Source: Myxococcales bacterium (lineage in GTDB: Bacteria > Myxococcota > UBA727 > GCA-2721815). Taken from it: a stretch of 64,000 nt of DNA. The notes below the pieces were generated by a model. That model saw only the letters and a program-made list of their open reading frames with translations, ran no database searches and was not told the origin of the DNA. Shown piece after piece: positions 24,828 to 36,377 of the stretch; the stretch's first letter is position 1, and each line of letters begins with the position of its first letter. The DNA lies in contig PBLQ01000061.1 in the NCBI GenBank assembly GCA_002721815.1, forward strand, positions 172,905 through 236,904, in the 5' to 3' direction. The translations under genes and the position numbers were made by a program.

Positions 24828-25499
24828 ATGGGTGAAGTTTTTACTGATTTAGCGCAAGCGTATCGTCACGGTGGATTTTGGATGATTCCGATTTCAGCCT
24901 TCCAAGCATTTTCCTTCGCCATTATGGCAGAACGCGTTTACGCGCTGTTCCTAAAAGTGCGTCTGAACAAAGAAGTGGTCTTGAACGGGCTGCGCGAACG
25001 TATCTTCCGTGGCGACGTCATGGGTGGCATTCGCTTCTTGGCAGACCAACCTCAAAGCCCTCTGACCCGTATTCTCAAAGCCGGGTTGTTGGAAGTTCGT
25101 CACGGCGAAGAAGAAGTACAGGCCGCCATGGATGAGGCCAGCATGCACGAACTGCCTTTCATTGAGAAGCGAACGGGTTATCTCTCCATGATTTCCAATG
25201 GTGCAACGCTCGCCGGTCTTCTGGGTACCATTCTCGGTATGATCAAGGTGTTCGCAGCGGTGGCTCAGGTCTCCGCGGCTGATAAATCCACCATGTTGTC
25301 CGCTGGTATTTCCGAAGCGATGAACTGTACAGCATACGGCTTGATCGCTGCGATTCCGCCGTTGGTTGCTTACTCCATCCTTCAAGGCCGTGCGCAAGCC
25401 CTCAACGATGACATCAGCGCCAGCGTTGCGACCACCATTAACATGGTCCTACGCAACAAAGAAAAGCTGAACATCGAAGCCATTGAAGGCGAAGGGTAG
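24828..25499 (+). CDS. MotA/TolQ/ExbB-family proton channel protein
   Basis: A 223-residue inner-membrane protein of the ExbB/TolQ/MotA/AglR family, which with ExbD/TolR partners converts proton flow into mechanical work across the periplasm. A first membrane helix is near the N-terminus (SAFQAFSFAIMAERVYALFL), and the family core is GATLAGLLGTILGMIKVF followed by AMNCTAYGLIAAIPPLVAYS. AAGGAG precedes the start. Two ExbD-like genes follow at once, so it is the channel part of a three-gene motor module. Confidence 0.9.
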   Translation: MGEVFTDLAQAYRHGGFWMIPISAFQAFSFAIMAERVYALFLKVRLNKEVVLNGLRERIFRGDVMGGIRFLADQPQSPLTRILKAGLLEVRHGEEEVQAAMDEASMHELPFIEKRTGYLSMISNGATLAGLLGTILGMIKVFAAVAQVSAADKSTMLSAGISEAMNCTAYGLIAAIPPLVAYSILQGRAQALNDDISASVATTINMVLRNKEKLNIEAIEGEG

Positions 25500-25504
25500 G
25501 ACCT

Positions 25505-25981
25505 ATGGGTGGTGCTGCACCAGAGGAGGGGAAAGGCAAACGGAGTTTAGACGCTCCGATCAACCTTGTTCCCTACATCGACTTAATGACCACCATCATC
25601 ACTTTCTTGATGATGACCGCGGTATGGACGCGTATTGCGGCCCTTGAGGTGCAAAACGCGTCCGGCGGTAACCCGCCGGAAGAAGAAGAAGAAGAAGAAA
25701 AAGATAGGCCCAAGCCCATCATCGTTTTAATCACCGACAAGGCCCTCAAAGTCCAGGAGGAAGGTTCTGAGATGAGAGAGCTGCCGACAACAGGTGAAGA
25801 TTACGATTTTGAGGCGCTCACCGAGCAACTGAAGGCTTTTAAAGAAGCGCGCCCAGAGCGTGTCGAGATTAAAATTCAAGCCGAAGATGGCGTTCAGTAC
25901 AACGCGGTAGCACGGGTTATCGATATTTCGACCGGGTTAGAATTGACGGGTTTGACTCTCACACCGGCATCGGCCAACTAG
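25505..25981 (+). CDS. ExbD/TolR-family protein (first copy)
   Basis: A 158-residue biopolymer-transport protein with one N-terminal membrane helix (NLVPYIDLMTTIITFLMM) carrying the conserved Asp of the proton path, then an acidic linker (Glu-run near residue 60) and a periplasmic domain. It is 5 bases downstream of the ExbB-like gene and 28 bases upstream of a second ExbD-like gene. The partner of the periplasmic domain is not visible. Confidence 0.88.
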   Translation: MGGAAPEEGKGKRSLDAPINLVPYIDLMTTIITFLMMTAVWTRIAALEVQNASGGNPPEEEEEEEKDRPKPIIVLITDKALKVQEEGSEMRELPTTGEDYDFEALTEQLKAFKEARPERVEIKIQAEDGVQYNAVARVIDISTGLELTGLTLTPASAN

Positions 25982-26009: not shown

Positions 26010-26609
26010 ATGGCCGTAGGTATTCGGCAACACAGGCAATCACATCGTTTCCACTCGATGAAGCTGTTAGGCAAAGAGGGTGGGGCACGTAGTGGCGACG
26101 TGTACATCAATGTTACGGCGCTGGTCGATATGATGACAGTGCTGGTGATTTTCCTTGTGATGAACTTTAACGCCAGTGGGGAAATGCTGTTCGTGTCCAA
26201 AGACATGAAGACGCCAACGGCGGAAAACGGCGTAGAAATCACGCGGGTTCCAATCATCTCACTCAATCGCGTTGGAGATTTATATTTTGAGGGATCTATT
26301 TTGGTCTCAAGCCTCGGGAACAATGCCGATGATGTAGACTGGCGAATCCCAGAGCTCGAAGACGAACTCAACGAGAACCGGGAGAAGTTTGAAGCCATCG
26401 GCGGAAATCGAGCAGCCGCCATGAATCCTGGGGAGGACCCAACCAGCACGGTCAACGTTCAGGTTGATAATGAGGTCGAATTCTCGATTTTGAAGCGGGT
26501 TCTGCACACTTGTGAGCTTGCTGGCTATGGTCGTATCCGACTGACAGTAGGGGATGGCCGCAAAGGTGACATGACCGAAGAGGAAATTCACAACGCAGTG
26601 GCAAATTAA
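26010..26609 (+). CDS. ExbD/TolR-family protein (second copy)
   Basis: A 199-residue ExbD-like protein whose membrane helix reads ALVDMMTVLVIFLVMNF, with the conserved Asp. Its N-terminus is longer and basic (His/Arg/Gln-rich), and its periplasmic domain is longer than that of the first copy. One channel subunit followed by two ExbD-like subunits is the AglR-AglQ-AglS arrangement of the myxobacterial gliding motor, and it is also seen in Tol and other energising systems; the resemblance does not prove the function. A terminator follows. Confidence 0.85.
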   Translation: MAVGIRQHRQSHRFHSMKLLGKEGGARSGDVYINVTALVDMMTVLVIFLVMNFNASGEMLFVSKDMKTPTAENGVEITRVPIISLNRVGDLYFEGSILVSSLGNNADDVDWRIPELEDELNENREKFEAIGGNRAAAMNPGEDPTSTVNVQVDNEVEFSILKRVLHTCELAGYGRIRLTVGDGRKGDMTEEEIHNAVAN

Positions 26610-26641
26610 GCCTCTAGGCCTCAAATTTTGAGCGTAAGTCG

Positions 26642-26788: not shown

Positions 26789-28258
26789 ATGATCCTCGAC
26801 CGGAAATTTTGGATTAGATTGATGATGCTGGCAGCAAAGAGCGGGACAAAATGGGGTGGCATGGCATGTTTAGCCATCGCATTTGCCGTTAGCTTTTCTA
26901 CCTCCATCAACGCTCAATCTTCAGGGTCAGCCGGACAGGCGCAGCAGGCCAACGGCCGTACGGACCCAGGAATCGCCAACAATCAGCAGTTCGGCGTACA
27001 AACCAACGGTCAAGGCCGTGGCGTGGCCGTTAAATCTAAAAAAACCCGAATGCACCTCAGCCTAGACGCTGCGGCAGGGGTCGATACCAACCCTTATTCA
27101 GTCCCCTCAGACCCCGATATCAACGGTGACCAAGTGGGTGCCGATATGGTGTTAAGGCTGCGGCCCGGTCTGGCCATGTCCAACTCAGACGCAGCCATCC
27201 TATGGGACACAGGATTCACGTTTGACTGGGGCATGATGCCAGGTGTGTTCAACGAACGTACGCAAAACAACTTGCTCTACCATGCTAACGCGCACGCTGG
27301 GCTCGAGTTTAATCGCGGCGCCCCTATGTCCTTTGCGATTCGAGATACTGTTGGTGCTTTCAGCGATCCTGGCCAAGTATCTTTAGGCCAAGTACAAAGC
27401 CGAATTAACAATGATTTCCTGGCCGGTTTGGCCTTCAAGCCTGGCGGCGGCGCATTGGTTCTCCGAACGGACTACAATTTTGGCTTCGAAAGATACATCA
27501 CACCCATCGGCTTTGAAGAGGGCAGCTCTAACATGGCCAATGGTGATTTCGACAGCATGAGGCACTATGCGCACGCTCGCGTCGATTGGCGCTTCTTTCC
27601 CAGAACTGGGGCCTATCTTGACCTGCGCGGCGGTGCCCATGTGTTCCCGTTTTCAGATGTGAACCCCGATTCTTATCCGTTCTGGGTTCGAACCGGTATT
27701 CTCGGGCAGTTCTCGCGTAAAAGCTCCGGTGTTGTCTCGCTCGGTTACGGCAATCCTTTCGTTATGGATACCCCCACAGGCGGTGGTGAGAAGACTTTAG
27801 TTACCGCTTCGTTCCCTGGCGTTATTGGTCACATGGAATACCGGTGGTTTCCCAACATGACCACCCAAATCGCTGGTGGTTTGAAACGGGATGTGACTCC
27901 GGCAGCGGTCTATCAATACGTTGCGAACTCAAGGGCGTACGTTCAATTTCAGCAAAAATTTGGTCGTAAAATGACCGCTTCGGGCGATGTTAGCTACGGT
28001 ATTCTCGAGTTTGGTGACGAACAATATTCGGGTCCTTACCCGTTCACCACCAAGCCTACAGGCCGTGTTGACCAAAACATCGGGGCCCGGCTTGAACTGG
28101 GATACAGCGTTTTCGAGTGGATGAGTGTTGGCCTGATGGAGCGATTCGCTTACAGAATTACCGAAGCGAACATGGTTGATTCCCTTTCTGGTAGAGTTTC
28201 CGGTAACTTAAGCTTTTTACGAAACGAACTCTTTGTTATCGGCTCCGTGCGTTACTAG
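26789..28258 (+). CDS. Outer-membrane beta-barrel protein beside polysaccharide export genes
   Basis: A 489-residue protein with a signal peptide (ends near STSINAQ), a Gln/Gly-rich linker and then a long run of alternating hydrophobic/polar strands, ending in an aromatic/Arg C-terminal strand (ELFVIGSVRY), typical of outer-membrane barrels. It immediately precedes the OPX and Wzc-type kinase genes, 90 bases apart. In Myxococcus xanthus a barrel encoded with a short OPX protein completes the outer-membrane polysaccharide channel; the same role is inferred here from length and position. An internal ATG at 26822 is an alternative start. Confidence 0.75.
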   Translation: MILDRKFWIRLMMLAAKSGTKWGGMACLAIAFAVSFSTSINAQSSGSAGQAQQANGRTDPGIANNQQFGVQTNGQGRGVAVKSKKTRMHLSLDAAAGVDTNPYSVPSDPDINGDQVGADMVLRLRPGLAMSNSDAAILWDTGFTFDWGMMPGVFNERTQNNLLYHANAHAGLEFNRGAPMSFAIRDTVGAFSDPGQVSLGQVQSRINNDFLAGLAFKPGGGALVLRTDYNFGFERYITPIGFEEGSSNMANGDFDSMRHYAHARVDWRFFPRTGAYLDLRGGAHVFPFSDVNPDSYPFWVRTGILGQFSRKSSGVVSLGYGNPFVMDTPTGGGEKTLVTASFPGVIGHMEYRWFPNMTTQIAGGLKRDVTPAAVYQYVANSRAYVQFQQKFGRKMTASGDVSYGILEFGDEQYSGPYPFTTKPTGRVDQNIGARLELGYSVFEWMSVGLMERFAYRITEANMVDSLSGRVSGNLSFLRNELFVIGSVRY

Positions 28259-28346
28259 GTGAGTTGGACCTAAGAAAAACCACCAAAACACCATTTGTCA
28301 TGCTATAGAGAGTGCATAGGCCTCAAATTTCGGGATTATATCAGTG

Positions 28347-28955
28347 ATGAGCTTCAGGACGAGTTTGACATTTCAGGTTTTGGCCTGTGGGTTATTGCTC
28401 GGCTGTGCCCACTCAGAGCCCGTGACGCCCGTCGTGACGGTTCAAGTGACCAATGCGGAAGCGCCGGTAACCATGCTTGGCGCAGGCGATGTCCTGGAGA
28501 TTCGAATCTATAACGAGCCGGAATTAAGTGGTATTCATCAGATTGGGTCGGATGGGAGTGTTCGCCTTCCATTGCTCGGGCCGATTATTCTTCAGGGGCT
28601 GTCCCCCGAGGACGCGACGGAGAAAATTACCGCGGGGTATAATTCAGAATTTTTACAGAACGCCCAAGTTTCTGTTTTTGTGAAAGAATTCAACTCGCGT
28701 AAGGTGTACGTACTTGGACAGGTGAAGAACCCAGGTCCTTATCCATTTGATGATAAAATGACCATTATTGCCGCAATTGCGAAGGCAGGCGGGACCACGA
28801 GATTGGCCGACCCGAATCGAACGGTGGTGACCCGAGACCAGGAAGGAAACCAGACCCGTTTGAATGCAATGGTTGGCGATATCGGTAAAGGGGAGGCACC
28901 AGATTTATCTCTGATGCCCGGTGATATTGTATTCGTTCCCGAAAGCCTGTTTTAA
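28347..28955 (+). CDS. Polysaccharide export lipoprotein (OPX/Wza family, short form)
   Basis: A 202-residue lipoprotein (LLLGC, Cys20) with the polysaccharide-biosynthesis/export domain: LGAGDVLEIRIYNEPELSG, RLPLLGPI near residues 50-90, and a SLBB-like segment VYVLGQVKNPGPYPF. Classical Wza is about 380 residues and ends in an amphipathic helix that forms the outer-membrane pore; this protein ends soon after the second domain and has no such helix. It must therefore work with another pore, most simply the adjacent barrel protein. ATG 28347 is used (GTG 28344 is also possible). The kinase gene follows after 2 bases. Confidence 0.9.
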   Translation: MSFRTSLTFQVLACGLLLGCAHSEPVTPVVTVQVTNAEAPVTMLGAGDVLEIRIYNEPELSGIHQIGSDGSVRLPLLGPIILQGLSPEDATEKITAGYNSEFLQNAQVSVFVKEFNSRKVYVLGQVKNPGPYPFDDKMTIIAAIAKAGGTTRLADPNRTVVTRDQEGNQTRLNAMVGDIGKGEAPDLSLMPGDIVFVPESLF

Positions 28956-28957
28956 CC

Positions 28958-31303
28958 ATGGATGAGCAACAAAATAAACCTCACCAGCCTTCCGAGGTCT
29001 GGCCCAATGTGACCCCGTTGCCCGGCCGAGGTAACGCAATTACGACGGATGTGCACAATACCCAGAGCGAGTCTGACTCTGAGTCTGCTATCGATTTATT
29101 TGAATACTTATTTATGATTCGTAAGCACTGGATGGTGTTTACGGTGGTCATTTTTGTTTCTGCCGTTGCTTCCGTTCTTTGGACGATGAAGCAGCCAAAG
29201 GTCTACAAGTCGCACGCGAGCATTATTATCAACAGTCGCGCGCCCAGGGTGCTCACGAATGTTCAAGAAGTAAATCCGGCTGGCGGCGGCAATTATTGGG
29301 CCACCGAATATTTTTACCGAACGGAATATAAAGTACTCGAAAGCCGCATGGTTGCTGCCCGGGCTGCTGAAATATTAAATATTGCTGCCGACGATGAGCA
29401 CAACGGAATCGCACGTATCAAAGAGGAAACGAAAAAAGCAGAAGCCAGGGCTCGTATGGATCCCGCTGCTTTGGTGCGCAGCATGTATTATATCGAACCC
29501 GATAAAAAATCTCGTGTGACCCGTGTGGTGGTAGAGCACCAAGACCCTCAGTACACGGCCAGGGTTGCGAATGCTGTGAGTGAAGCCTATTTGGAGCAAA
29601 ACCTGGATCAAAAAACTGCCAGTACCCGAGAGGCATCCAGTTGGCTCGCTGTTCAACACCAAGACCTCAAGAAAAAGTTAGAACAGTCTGAGCAAGCACT
29701 TTTTGATTATATGGCGACCAAGAATGTTTTGAATGCGAGTCTGGAAAGCCAGGAAGCGGAAGTGCTCCAAAGATTAACGGCGTTCAATTCCAGGTTGGCG
29801 GAGGTGCAAGCGGAGCGTATCGCGTCGGAACTCCGTGTGGAGGCACTTCAACAGGCCCGGCAAGATACCAACACGCTCGACTCTTTAGATGAAGTCAGGC
29901 AAACGGTGATTATTGGTGAGTTAAAGAGCCGATTGGTAGAGCTTAATGGCAAAAAATCTGACCTGGAAAGCCGGTATAAGAAAGCACACCCAAAGGTCCA
30001 AACCATCAACCGTCAAATTCAGTTAGTTAAAGCCAACCTCGCTAAGGAGGTTGATGGGGTATTAATGGGGCTGGAGCGTGCCGCCGCTTCTTTGCAAACC
30101 ACTGAGCAAGGCCTCAAAACTGCGATCGCAAATGAAAAGTCGAAGGAAGCCTATCTCAACAAACTGAAGTTGGATTACACCAGGCTTAAAAGGGAAGTCG
30201 ATACCAATAAAAAGTTATTCGAGCTTGTGACGAGCCGTCTGAAAGAAACGGATCTATCGGGCATGTTACGTGTGAACAACGCCTTCATTTTGGATCCCGC
30301 AAAGGTGCCCAATGCACCGTTCAAGCCCAGTCTTCGTCGTAATGGCTTCATGGGCTGTTTATTGGGACTCTTCCTCGCACTGGCGTTGGTGGTGTTTTTG
30401 GAGGTCACGGATAATACTTTGAGGTCTCCGGAGGACATTCAGGAAATCCTTGGTACTGCTTTTCTTGGCATGTTACCTGTGATCGACCGGGAAGAGGAAA
30501 ACATACCGAAGAATGTGGTGCCCGTCTCTGAGACGGTCAAGCAAACCAAGCACAGGGATTTCTATATTCTAGAGAATCCCAAAAGTATGTCTGCAGAATG
30601 TATCCGATCCATTCGAACCAACCTGCTGTTCATGAGCCCCGATCGTGCTTTAGAGAGTATGGTGGTAACGTCGGCCATTCCGCAAGAGGGGAAAACAACC
30701 ACCGCCATTTCATTGGCCATCACGATGGCGCAGTCAGGTTCTCGAACGTTGTTGGTGGATACAGACATGCGTCGCCCCCGGTTACACCGATCGTTTGGGC
30801 TTAAAAACGAAGTGGGAATTACCAGTGCCATTGTTGGGGATAAAACCTTAGACGAGGCGATTCAAAGAACAGAAGTGGAAGGCCTCGACTTATTGGTTTG
30901 CGGGCCTGTGCCACCCAATCCGGCAGAGTTGCTGCACACCCAGCGGTTCGTAAAGGTATTTAATGATCTGAAGGCCAGGTACGACAGGGTCATTTTTGAT
31001 TCACCACCCGTGGGGGCGGTTACCGATCCTGTGATTTTGTCCACACTTGTAGACGGCACAATCTTGGTTGTGAAGAGTGGAAAAACCACGCGTCACCTGG
31101 GCCGTCAGTCCATGAGAACGCTGCGAGACGCCAACGTCAACGTTCTGGGGGCCATCCTCAACGATGTTGCCTTGTCGAGAAAGAAATACGGCTACTACTA
31201 CAGCCGATACTATCGATACGGTACCTATTACGGCCAGTATTACGGACCCTATGGTGCTGACGAAAGCGAAGACGGGGGCGGGGACCAAAAGAATTCGGCT
31301 TAG
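28958..31303 (+). CDS. Wzc-type chain-length/tyrosine kinase (BY-kinase)
   Basis: A 781-residue co-polymerase with two membrane helices (HWMVFTVVIFVSAVASVLW and MGCLLGLFLALALVVFLE) flanking a coiled-coil periplasmic Wzz domain. Its cytoplasmic BY-kinase has Walker A (IPQEGKTTTAI, near 577), Walker A' (LLVDTDMRRPRLH) and Walker B (VIFDSPPVGA). The C-terminal tail has about a dozen Tyr in a short stretch, the autophosphorylation cluster that controls polymer length and export. With the barrel and OPX genes it forms an export line across both membranes; no polymerase, flippase or glycosyltransferase is in this window. Confidence 0.93.
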   Translation: MDEQQNKPHQPSEVWPNVTPLPGRGNAITTDVHNTQSESDSESAIDLFEYLFMIRKHWMVFTVVIFVSAVASVLWTMKQPKVYKSHASIIINSRAPRVLTNVQEVNPAGGGNYWATEYFYRTEYKVLESRMVAARAAEILNIAADDEHNGIARIKEETKKAEARARMDPAALVRSMYYIEPDKKSRVTRVVVEHQDPQYTARVANAVSEAYLEQNLDQKTASTREASSWLAVQHQDLKKKLEQSEQALFDYMATKNVLNASLESQEAEVLQRLTAFNSRLAEVQAERIASELRVEALQQARQDTNTLDSLDEVRQTVIIGELKSRLVELNGKKSDLESRYKKAHPKVQTINRQIQLVKANLAKEVDGVLMGLERAAASLQTTEQGLKTAIANEKSKEAYLNKLKLDYTRLKREVDTNKKLFELVTSRLKETDLSGMLRVNNAFILDPAKVPNAPFKPSLRRNGFMGCLLGLFLALALVVFLEVTDNTLRSPEDIQEILGTAFLGMLPVIDREEENIPKNVVPVSETVKQTKHRDFYILENPKSMSAECIRSIRTNLLFMSPDRALESMVVTSAIPQEGKTTTAISLAITMAQSGSRTLLVDTDMRRPRLHRSFGLKNEVGITSAIVGDKTLDEAIQRTEVEGLDLLVCGPVPPNPAELLHTQRFVKVFNDLKARYDRVIFDSPPVGAVTDPVILSTLVDGTILVVKSGKTTRHLGRQSMRTLRDANVNVLGAILNDVALSRKKYGYYYSRYYRYGTYYGQYYGPYGADESEDGGGDQKNSA

Positions 31304-33601: not shown

Positions 33602-33747
33602 GGGGCGTCCTCCATGAAATCCCAAAAATCCTAAGGGCTTAAACCTTTATAGCCCGGGCCCGAGAAAAAAGCAGATTTTTGACCTTTTCCGCATTCTTGC
33701 ATTTGACTGAGGACAGTCCTATTTTCCCTGAAAGATTTTTTCGGGGG

Positions 33748-35214
33748 ATGGAGGAGTCGGCCTTGTCCGTGCAACAGGACGCATACGACCTGCTACAACA
33801 ACGTGCCTTTGTTGCTCAGCTTGCCTCAATTGAAATTGCAATGGTGCAACAAATGGTGGCCGAACCCAGCTGGCTAACGTCGGAAGATGAGGCAACCTTA
33901 CGATGGGCATTGTCCATGGCGCGGGTTTCCCAGGTGGTATCCGACGAGACCCGGCCCCATTCGGCGATCGATGTGGGCCACGCCACTGATATGTTTCGGC
34001 AAAAGCTACACAAATTGCTCGCCCCTTGCGTGGGAACCTCAATGGTGGTGAGGCGCGATGTGGTGCCTAAACAAATGAAGGCCATTTCAAAGTTGCTCAC
34101 CGAAGAAAGAGCGGCTTTGTTGAGTTTGTATGGAACTCGGATGTCGCCAGAAGCGTTGGATCGTGCTGTTCGGAAGAGACCTCTGGCTTTGGCATTGGGT
34201 GGGGGCGGTGGAACCGGCTACGTATTTTTGGGTGCGATGATGGAATTGGATGAGGCGGGTTTGGTGCCCGATGTCATCGCGGGCAGCTCAATGGGGGCTA
34301 TCTTGGGCGCTTTCCGGGCAATCACCCCACATTTTCACGTGGAAGAGATGCGTAAATTGATTTCGTCGCTGTCTTGGTCACGCGTCTTTCGTCTCTTTGA
34401 ACGAAAAAGTAGGTTTGGCATCCCCGCCACCTTATCCCTCTACCTGCGTGAGGTCATCGGCCATGAGTTCGAGCGGGAGGAAGGTTTTTTGGCCCTCAAG
34501 GATTTGAGTATTCCTCTGAGGGTGGTGGTGGCCGGCCTGAAAGGTACTGATGAAGAGAATGCGCTCGATTTGGACCGGTATGCCCACCTGCTCGACGATA
34601 CGGCCGAAAACCCTTTAAATATGCGCAAAAGGGCTGGTAGCATCCTAAAAACGGTGGTGGATTTTGCACGACAGCCCATCAAAAGAATTACTTTGGGTTT
34701 GACCGAGCAAAGCCAAACGTTTGATGTGCTGGACGCCATCGGTTTTTCAGCATCTGTGCCCGGCATGATTCATTACGATATAGAACGGAATGACCCCAGG
34801 ATGCTGGATTTGGTTGAAGGCATAATGGCCCAAGAAGGTGTTTCCCGGTTTTTTGATGGTGGCTTTGCAGACAACTTGCCGGGTCTGGACGCGTGGTATG
34901 CGGCTCAAGATGGCAGTATTTGCCAAAGAGACCCCTTCGTTCTGACCCTGGATAGTTTTGCGCCCCAAATATCGCGGCACATATTGTTTTTGCCGCTGAT
35001 GCGCCTGGCTGCAGAGCGCAGCAAGGAGGGGCGCGCGGTATCCGACCTAAATATCGAGTATAAAAAGGTTTTATCTCCAATACACGTGGTTCCGAAGGCC
35101 GAGGCGTTCGTTCGTGCTGTGAAGAATGGCCGTAACGAAACCAAGCCTCACATCCCATTCATTCGTAAAATGGTGGGCCCCATTCCTGAGCCGCCTTGCC
35201 TAAAATCGTCGTAA
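33748..35214 (+). CDS. Patatin-like phospholipase
   Basis: About 488 residues with a patatin lipase domain: the oxyanion loop LALGGGGGTGYVFLGAM, the nucleophile elbow GSSMGAILGAF (GxSxG) and the DGGFADNLPG catalytic Asp motif. An N-terminal helical region of about 140 residues and an insert between the Ser and Asp motifs make it longer than plant patatins. No signal peptide is obvious. The first ATG with a suitable context is 33748, but the frame is open from a TTG at 33679, so the 5' end is uncertain. Confidence 0.85.
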   Translation: MEESALSVQQDAYDLLQQRAFVAQLASIEIAMVQQMVAEPSWLTSEDEATLRWALSMARVSQVVSDETRPHSAIDVGHATDMFRQKLHKLLAPCVGTSMVVRRDVVPKQMKAISKLLTEERAALLSLYGTRMSPEALDRAVRKRPLALALGGGGGTGYVFLGAMMELDEAGLVPDVIAGSSMGAILGAFRAITPHFHVEEMRKLISSLSWSRVFRLFERKSRFGIPATLSLYLREVIGHEFEREEGFLALKDLSIPLRVVVAGLKGTDEENALDLDRYAHLLDDTAENPLNMRKRAGSILKTVVDFARQPIKRITLGLTEQSQTFDVLDAIGFSASVPGMIHYDIERNDPRMLDLVEGIMAQEGVSRFFDGGFADNLPGLDAWYAAQDGSICQRDPFVLTLDSFAPQISRHILFLPLMRLAAERSKEGRAVSDLNIEYKKVLSPIHVVPKAEAFVRAVKNGRNETKPHIPFIRKMVGPIPEPPCLKSS

Positions 35215-35312: not shown

Positions 35313-35540
35313 CCCGATCGTTCAAGACATAGAGTCTTGGCTACCAAAAAGGTTATTAAAGCATTTTATGCCATACTTGAGGCAAAAAATATGTGTAAAA
35401 CCTGGACTGAGACGCCACGCGCCTAAGTGGGCCTCGTCCAACATCAGGCAGCATTTTGCTGTTCAGAGCACCGCTTCTGTTCATAAACCTGACTTTACTG
35501 TACTGGAATGCACCTTTTCTTGTGGGGAGAATATTTAGAT

Positions 35541-36377
35541 ATGTCTTTTGATTTTGATGATTTTGAAGTTCGAGGCCGGTTTTACGATATCGAAGAGAAA
35601 ACCGAAGTGCTTCGGGAGCTGATGGGAACGCTTTATAAAGAAGAGCAAGACGACCTTCACGAAGCCTGGGCCATTGCTTACATTCACCACGATTGCGCCC
35701 TAGACGGGACGGTTTTAAATCATGAAGAACTGCGTCCGGTTTGTTCTCGCAAGGTGGCGCAGACCCCTCGTGCCATGAACGGCGTTCAGTTGGTACGTAA
35801 CCATCACGAATTATTGAGCCAGTTGCTGGGACAAAAAAGCTTCGCATCAAAAGGAGAGGCGCTCGTTTTGGATGTGCAAGCGTTGGTGGATTTAAACGAG
35901 GCCATCATGCTGAATTTGCCTCGAAAAAAGCCGGGACAATGGCGTAAAGAAATGCCTTTGCACCGCACTTACTTTCACACCTTCATGGAGCCTGAAGAAA
36001 TCCAGCAGGGCCTGGAAGCGGTTTGTCGAGCCACCACTGAGGAAGAATTTCAAAGCCAGCATCCGGTCAACCAAGCGGCATTGTTTCACCACGCGTTCAT
36101 GCAGGTTTTTCCCTTCGCAGAAGGTACCGGGACCATTGGGCGCCACTTGATGAATAGCTTTTTGGTGCGCGGTGGGTATGACCCCTGCGTGATTCACGCC
36201 AGCGACCGTCAAGCATACTACGAAGCGTTGCTACATGGTCCTGAAGGCCTCAGAGCCTTGATTCTCGATAGCCTGGAAGCCCAACTGGAGGCCCAAATCA
36301 AATATGTGAAGGGTTTGATCCGAGAGCGGGAAAAACAGAACCAACGTCCCAACAACTATCGTGGGCTGGCTGTTTGA
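35541..36377 (+). CDS. Fic-fold protein lacking the catalytic motif
   Basis: A 278-residue protein with the Fic/DOC helical fold; FHHAFMQVFPFAEGTGTIGRH (about residues 181-202) corresponds to the motif HxFx(D/E)GNGRxxR. The catalytic His is Phe, and Asn and Arg of GNGR are Thr, so AMP transfer by the usual mechanism is not expected. An N-terminal region of about 100 residues includes WAIAYIHHDCALDGTVLNHEE, similar to Fic N-terminal helices. Start 35541 has GGGGAG upstream. It is followed by a strong terminator. Its role is unknown; a regulatory or pseudoenzyme function is inferred. Confidence 0.75.
   Translation: MSFDFDDFEVRGRFYDIEEKTEVLRELMGTLYKEEQDDLHEAWAIAYIHHDCALDGTVLNHEELRPVCSRKVAQTPRAMNGVQLVRNHHELLSQLLGQKSFASKGEALVLDVQALVDLNEAIMLNLPRKKPGQWRKEMPLHRTYFHTFMEPEEIQQGLEAVCRATTEEEFQSQHPVNQAALFHHAFMQVFPFAEGTGTIGRHLMNSFLVRGGYDPCVIHASDRQAYYEALLHGPEGLRALILDSLEAQLEAQIKYVKGLIREREKQNQRPNNYRGLAV

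Follow-up and report, generated by a model that had tools for sequence, protein, structure and literature searches.

Classical Wza of Escherichia coli, a Class 1 outer-membrane polysaccharide export (OPX) protein, forms its outer-membrane pore with a C-terminal amphipathic helix and is partnered by the kinase Wzc. A composite translocon described in 2022 instead couples a short OPX protein (at most 280 residues, built from domains D1 and D2 alone and lacking a C-terminal helix) to a separate 18-stranded outer-membrane β-barrel, the two partners binding or stabilising one another and carrying the polymer. It was shown for EpsX/EpsY of the Myxococcus xanthus exopolysaccharide (EPS) system, and PMC9601211 gives 18 strands for EpsX, ExoB and WzpB alike. 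In the biosurfactant polysaccharide (BPS) set of M. xanthus, whose polymer is surface-active and rich in ManNAcA, the barrel WzpB (MXAN_1916) is followed on the same strand by the short Class 3 OPX protein WzaB (MXAN_1915). PMC7310880 describes WzaB as an orphan, 1.016 Mb away from the cluster to which it belongs, and gives WzcB as a polysaccharide co-polymerase (PCP) with a fused kinase. Here we analyse a barrel, OPX and kinase gene trio in a 64,000-nucleotide stretch of DNA (the window) from an uncultured Myxococcota lineage (Myxococcales bacterium, assembly GCA_002721815.1, contig PBLQ01000061.1; C61:172905-236904 in the 4.6-Mb source genome).

A probable composite export locus

The trio consists of consecutive genes, all on the + strand: a barrel gene (26789..28258, ATG start, 489 aa), an OPX gene (28344..28955) and a PCP/kinase gene (28958..31303, 781 aa). 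The OPX gene lies 85 bp after the barrel gene and 2 bp ahead of the kinase gene. Its product is 203 aa long from a GTG start, or 202 aa from the ATG at 28347. A first-pass annotation, made from the window's letters, had placed a 202-residue OPX protein between a 489-residue barrel gene and a Wzc-type kinase, and the coordinates and the Pfam and NCBIfam matches agree with this.

The OPX protein matches Pfam Poly_export (28458-28682, + strand; 65.7 bits, cut-off 28) and a single SLBB domain (28698-28937, + strand). It is a predicted lipoprotein, judging from the lipobox motif LLGC, whose Cys21 is nearly invariant in an alignment of 15 sequences. The AlphaFold2 (AF2) model (mean pLDDT 86.8) has two domains, with helices inside D1 and D2 and in the signal peptide only; a C-terminal helix was not found in it. 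Complete OPX open reading frames (ORFs) are present at the barrel loci of 54 of 67 relatives, and all 54 end at the window protein's last residue; at the remaining 13 loci the ORF is absent or cut. Among 80 separately found OPX loci from named genome records, 57 end at the window's residue, 21 end within two residues of it and two carry 18 extra C-terminal residues. The pore helix was already said in the first-pass annotation to be missing, unless a longer alternative end should carry it. The model and the homologue ends agree with that claim, as does a stop codon 2 bp before the kinase ATG, and no helix at a longer end was found among the homologues. The protein therefore lacks the feature that defines Class 1 Wza and has the size and D1D2 build of the OPX partner in a composite translocon. 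In the PDB, 9n9a, the Class 3 OPX protein WzaB of M. xanthus, is its best match in sequence as well as in Foldseek E-value; our literature search found no paper on the 9n9a structure.

The barrel protein has a signal peptide region followed by the barrel proper from about residue 86 (27044), and it matched no Pfam family. Its AF2 model (alignment A2; pLDDT 81.7, pTM 0.77) has 18 long strands, counted by hand from the listed structural elements. The gene coupled to the OPX gene is thus predicted to encode an 18-stranded outer-membrane barrel of the kind that composite translocons use. Foldseek matches in the PDB include AlgE and PgaA among TonB-type receptors; the fold search of the model says no more than 'large outer-membrane barrel'.

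The third protein matches the Pfam families Wzz, GNVR and AAA_31, and reaches 188.6 bits against the NCBIfam model TIGR01007 (polysaccharide tyrosine autokinase; cut-off 108.05). Its kinase domain, followed by a tyrosine-rich tail, lies at about 30599-31204 (+ strand). Bacterial tyrosine kinases (BY-kinases) carry Walker A, A' and B motifs and a C-terminal tyrosine cluster, and the motifs PQEGKTT, LLVDTDMR and VIFDSPP together with the tyrosine-rich tail identify the protein, by sequence, as a BY-kinase fused to a PCP-2A co-polymerase. Its PDB matches are Wzc, CapB and VpsO, and the gene is the sole PF02706 match in the genome.

Relationship to known exporters

As a reference we used a Myxococcus genome (G057): over 6.9 kb at its barrel locus the DNA is 94% identical to that of M. 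xanthus AM003, and the OPX protein encoded there is nearly identical to 9n9a. Against the three OPX proteins of G057, the window protein scored 143 bits (WzaB, at 2.32 Mb), 101 and 71, the other two being assigned to ExoA and EpsY from map position. In BLAST searches the window barrel matched only the WzaB-linked barrel at 2.32 Mb in G057. The best match of the kinase was the single full-length PCP-2A/kinase at 1.26 Mb (42%), about 1.06 Mb from the barrel. Each of the three proteins thus has its best match in the BPS set, and the trio is assigned by sequence to the BPS branch (WzpB/WzaB/WzcB), closer to it than to the EPS or spore-coat versions, with the PCP here beside OPX and barrel.

The window locus shares with the BPS set of M. 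xanthus a short Class 3 OPX gene that follows the barrel gene on the same strand, the PCP-2A with fused kinase and, as described in PMC7310880, the position of OPX and barrel away from the synthesis genes. It differs in that the PCP-kinase gene directly follows the OPX gene, whereas it lies about 1 Mb away in Myxococcus, and in that a motor of the AglRQS class is found upstream, where Myxococcus has a Glt-like cluster. The EPS exporter EpsX/EpsY also combines a D1D2 OPX protein with an 18-stranded barrel (PMC9601211, in part). However, its OPX protein is only 29% identical to that of the window (71 bits versus 143 for WzaB), its barrel was not matched by BLAST, the OPX gene there precedes the barrel gene (gene order as given in PMC9603273), and PCP and kinase are described as separate proteins in the EPS part of PMC7310880. 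EpsX/EpsY was therefore rejected as the closest relative. The likeness to the M. xanthus composite system drawn in the first-pass annotation stands, but the partner is WzpB/WzaB/WzcB and not EpsX/EpsY, where the composite translocon was shown. The E. coli Wza-Wzc pair has Poly_export and SLBB domains and a Wzc-type kinase in common with the window; the window OPX protein, unlike Wza, has neither D3 nor C-terminal helix, and a barrel is added.

These comparisons support the reading of OPX and barrel as a putative composite translocon. Very probably the trio is orthologous to WzpB-WzaB-WzcB and forms, for one polysaccharide pathway of the Wzx/Wzy type, the export end that spans the envelope. In such a pathway the kinase-bearing co-polymerase would control chain growth in the inner membrane; the polymer would pass a ring that the short OPX lipoprotein forms in the periplasm, and leave through the 18-stranded barrel, which would replace the helical pore of Wza. 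Repeat units would be supplied by the phosphoglycosyltransferase (PGT) and flippase genes on contig C54 and the sugar genes on C64. The first-pass reading of the trio is right and ordinary for the phylum, and the translocon type is already known. What the locus contributes is a member of that type from an uncultured lineage, with the BPS branch seen as a contiguous barrel-OPX-PCP set that is split in M. xanthus. The wider gene order, taken up below, weighs more.

Conservation of the gene order

Of 97 genomes searched, 68 match the barrel, the window's own included, and the other 67 places form the barrel-locus survey. An OPX gene follows the barrel on the same strand in 55 of these 67, within 400 bp in 52 and at 2.4-3.3 kb in three. 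Starting from the OPX side, in a set of 80 loci that overlaps with the first, a barrel lies at most 500 bp upstream in 67. Barrel homologues are thus mostly found beside OPX genes, and not away from them, as the first-pass annotation had named as a possible objection. The PCP/kinase gene comes next in all eight loci of the same taxonomic order that have an OPX gene and enough room, and less often elsewhere. Co-occurrence of the trio among relatives, also foreseen there, accordingly holds phylum-wide for barrel and OPX, and within the order for the kinase.

Three loci of the survey deserve separate mention. In G007 (L059, 3703-6898) OPX and barrel are separated by two ORFs that look LigD- and Ku-like by eye. 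A record titled 'Euryarchaeota archaeon' (L108) carries a Myxococcota-type locus and is probably mislabelled, and one titled 'Comamonas sp. KCTC 72670' (L184) carries a barrel-OPX pair, its title probably being wrong.

Motor and Glt-like genes beside the exporter

Directly upstream of the barrel, from which a 179-bp gap separates them, are + strand genes for an AglR-class proton channel subunit of the TolQ/ExbB type (24828..25499; PF01618), an AglQ-like ExbD/TolR-type subunit (25505..25981; PF02472) with its proton aspartate at residue 26, and a second, AglS-like ExbD/TolR-type subunit (26010..26609; PF02472) with Asp40, the two aspartates being located by alignment. Asp26 aligns with Asp28 of the Myxococcus homologue (residue number by hand count). 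In a tree of TolQ proteins, that of the window falls in a clade with the TolQ at 8.16 Mb in Myxococcus, apart from the one at 3.54 Mb (support 100/100). The residue named for AglQ in the passages of PMC3858216 on its mutant D28N is D28. We call the triad AglRQS-class because the ExbD neighbour in Myxococcus has Asp28, the 8.16-Mb triad being equated with AglRQS from this residue and its map position. With a TolQ and two ExbD genes in order, a TolQ in the AglR clade and the proton aspartate, the triad is predicted to be an AglRQS-type motor. The window locus resembles the Agl-Glt and Agl-Nfs machineries in this triad upstream of the trio, and differs in not being tied to motility here.

The triad precedes the barrel in seven genomes of the order including the window's, the other six having TolQ identities of 69-85%. 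An eighth genome, G004, has a triad part and a trio part that both stop at contig ends; in G005 and G007 the trio occurs and the motor does not.

In other Myxococcota, the barrel-OPX pair lies downstream of tetratricopeptide repeat proteins, often a TolQ-ExbD-ExbD set of a second class, and a GltG-like protein. Three GltG-like proteins were scanned: the C-terminal AgmX/PglI domain scored 89-118 bits (NCBIfam cut-off 40), and the GltG equivalog cut-off was not reached (143-172 of 650). Of the loci counted, 35 of 58 in the barrel set and 38 of 57 in the OPX set have a same-strand GltG-like gene upstream. These overlapping sets comprise loci with at least 2.5 kb upstream, which left out 9 of 67 and 10 of 67 (the latter being OPX-set loci with a barrel), and the counts were made with hidden Markov models built from eight such loci, seeds included. 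The same searches showed a small secreted protein of about 190-220 aa without a Pfam family, encoded immediately before the barrel gene in 40 of 58 barrel-set and 50 of 57 OPX-set loci, for example at L068:6048-6704 and L159:5885-6457. The Glt-like core is directly upstream of the pair in L199 (G057), L159, L153, L193, L130 and others, across Myxococcota families.

In Myxococcus (G057) the order is GltD/GltE-like, GltG-like, cNMP-binding-like (cyclic nucleotide, labelled by eye), small secreted protein, barrel, OPX. The G4 cluster includes the gltD homologue MXAN_1922, and the functions of G4 and M2 are reported as unknown, in those passages of PMC3169522 that treat them. Since MXAN_1922 is in G4 and barrel and OPX are MXAN_1916 and MXAN_1915, the upstream cluster of Myxococcus fits the G4 numbering. 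G4 and M2 resemble the GltG-like genes that adjoin the export pair in relatives, and the G4 cluster is placed beside wzpB-wzaB. In a literature search for an earlier report of the link between motor or G4 and exporter, which did not extend to supplements, figures and subscription journals, none of the papers listed had MXAN_1922 together with MXAN_1915 or MXAN_1916.

No GltG-like gene was present in the 13-14 kb fetched around ExoA and EpsY, and the cluster taken for the true gliding cluster G1 showed no such exporter pairing in the stretch fetched. In the window's own genome, contig C10 carries a cluster of GltE-like, class-B TolQ, ExbD, ExbD and GltG-like genes, with no barrel within the 20 kb read. 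The NCBIfam GltE model gave 14 matches in this genome, none over the cut-off, and also matches 12 of 14 control genomes; these matches were discarded as non-specific.

We infer a functional link between the motor or Glt-like genes and the exporter from this gene order. In addition to its export role, the trio could be part of a larger machine. In the window's genome a proton-driven motor of the AglRQS class, and in other parts of the phylum an M2-class motor together with a Glt-like core, would act on the same polymer and span the periplasm left open by the short OPX protein. We put this forward tentatively, as somewhat doubtful. It is favoured by the triad upstream in seven genomes, the frequency of GltG-like genes upstream, the Myxococcus Glt-like run that ends in barrel and OPX, the two different motor classes found beside the pair, and the ExoA and EpsY loci, where no GltG-like gene was seen. 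AglRQS is also reported to move surface polysaccharide in sporulation (PMC3858216, in part). However, fabG and/or fabF also lie upstream of the motor in four of the six loci of the order that carry the triad, which means that conservation of the neighbourhood is non-specific; G005 and G007 do without the motor, and in Myxococcus the motor genes lie elsewhere. Agl systems are moreover stated, in the passages of PMC3858216 concerned, to act after export and not to be involved in sugar synthesis or export.

The BPS-type composite exporter might then be half of a larger envelope machine, with a proton-driven motor and a Glt-like transducer coupling inner-membrane energy to the short-OPX/barrel translocon, a proposal that we hold with the same reserve. 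If true, the M. xanthus G4 and M2 clusters would have their missing role, and the 'ancestral core' that gave rise to gliding would have a candidate original function. As two classes of motor genes occur next to this exporter, polysaccharide handling by relatives of the gliding machinery becomes testable.

Biosynthesis genes and other readings

The genome has one Poly_export and one Wzz match, both in this locus, and one PGT match, on C54. Wzx-type flippase matches are on C54 and C5, and C54 also has glycosyltransferases (GTs) of families GT4 and GT2 and sulfatase-fold proteins. C64 carries sugar-nucleotide enzymes, GTs and one Wzy_C protein; the other two of three Wzy_C matches are on C20 and on C61 outside the window. 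All PGT, Wzx-type and Wzy_C family matches in the genome thus lie outside the window, and no polymerase or glycosyltransferase gene adjoins the trio among the ORFs read at 22-36 kb. The separation of export from biosynthesis genes noted in the first-pass annotation is borne out by this genome search, and has a published precedent in WzaB (PMC7310880, in part). It is not universal: in G029 genes for a Wzy_C protein and the kinase, then a GT2-like ORF, come after the barrel-OPX pair, and a PGT lies within 8 kb in 4 of 80 OPX loci (single query). By elimination, we infer that the PGT, flippase and sugar genes belong to one pathway with the trio. The PGT/flippase cluster (C54:10001-26000) also encodes two adjacent membrane proteins of 660-700 aa and like sequence, the first of which matches Pfam Sulfatase and is presumably LtaS-like.

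That no Wzx or Wzy gene adjoins the trio would also fit export of an ABC-transporter- or synthase-dependent polymer. This is improbable: PGT and Wzx-type flippase matches occur in the genome, G029 has a Wzy_C protein and the kinase downstream of the barrel-OPX pair, and a PCP-2A with a BY-kinase belongs to the Wzx/Wzy type. The alternative of a truncated or frameshifted Wza without its pore helix, beside an unrelated porin, for which the barrel's lack of a Pfam family might speak, was rejected as scarcely credible on the common end points of the homologues (54 of 54 at the same residue; 78 of 80 within two residues, the other two at +18), the stop 2 bp before the kinase gene and the phylum-wide adjacency of barrel and OPX.

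Several observations nevertheless weigh against a BPS-type composite export end. The OPX model superimposes on 9n9a with a template-modelling (TM) score of 0.48-0.57 and scores higher on D1-D2 entries of Wza, up to 0.77; the lower value for 9n9a is perhaps due to domain orientation. The barrel's Foldseek matches have a TM score of about 0.4, a moderate value, with TonB receptors ranked level with AlgE. Twelve of the 67 barrel loci have no OPX gene in the stretch fetched, four at contig ends, at most 1.3 kb from the barrel, and eight not, and no barrel was found at 12 of the 80 OPX loci, with one at 3.1 kb. Finally, three Wzy_C matches make several candidate polymerases.

Other features of the locus

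A 14-bp exact repeat, spotted by eye post hoc, occurs in the gap before the barrel (26615..26628, + strand) and in the gap before the OPX gene (28317..28330, + strand), these being its only two copies in the genome. It was not seen in seven relatives checked, and was dropped as a meaningful element because it is not common to them. Promoter and terminator scans gave results at chance level only. Downstream of the export locus are genes for a patatin-like protein (33679-35214) and a Fic-domain protein (35508-36377).

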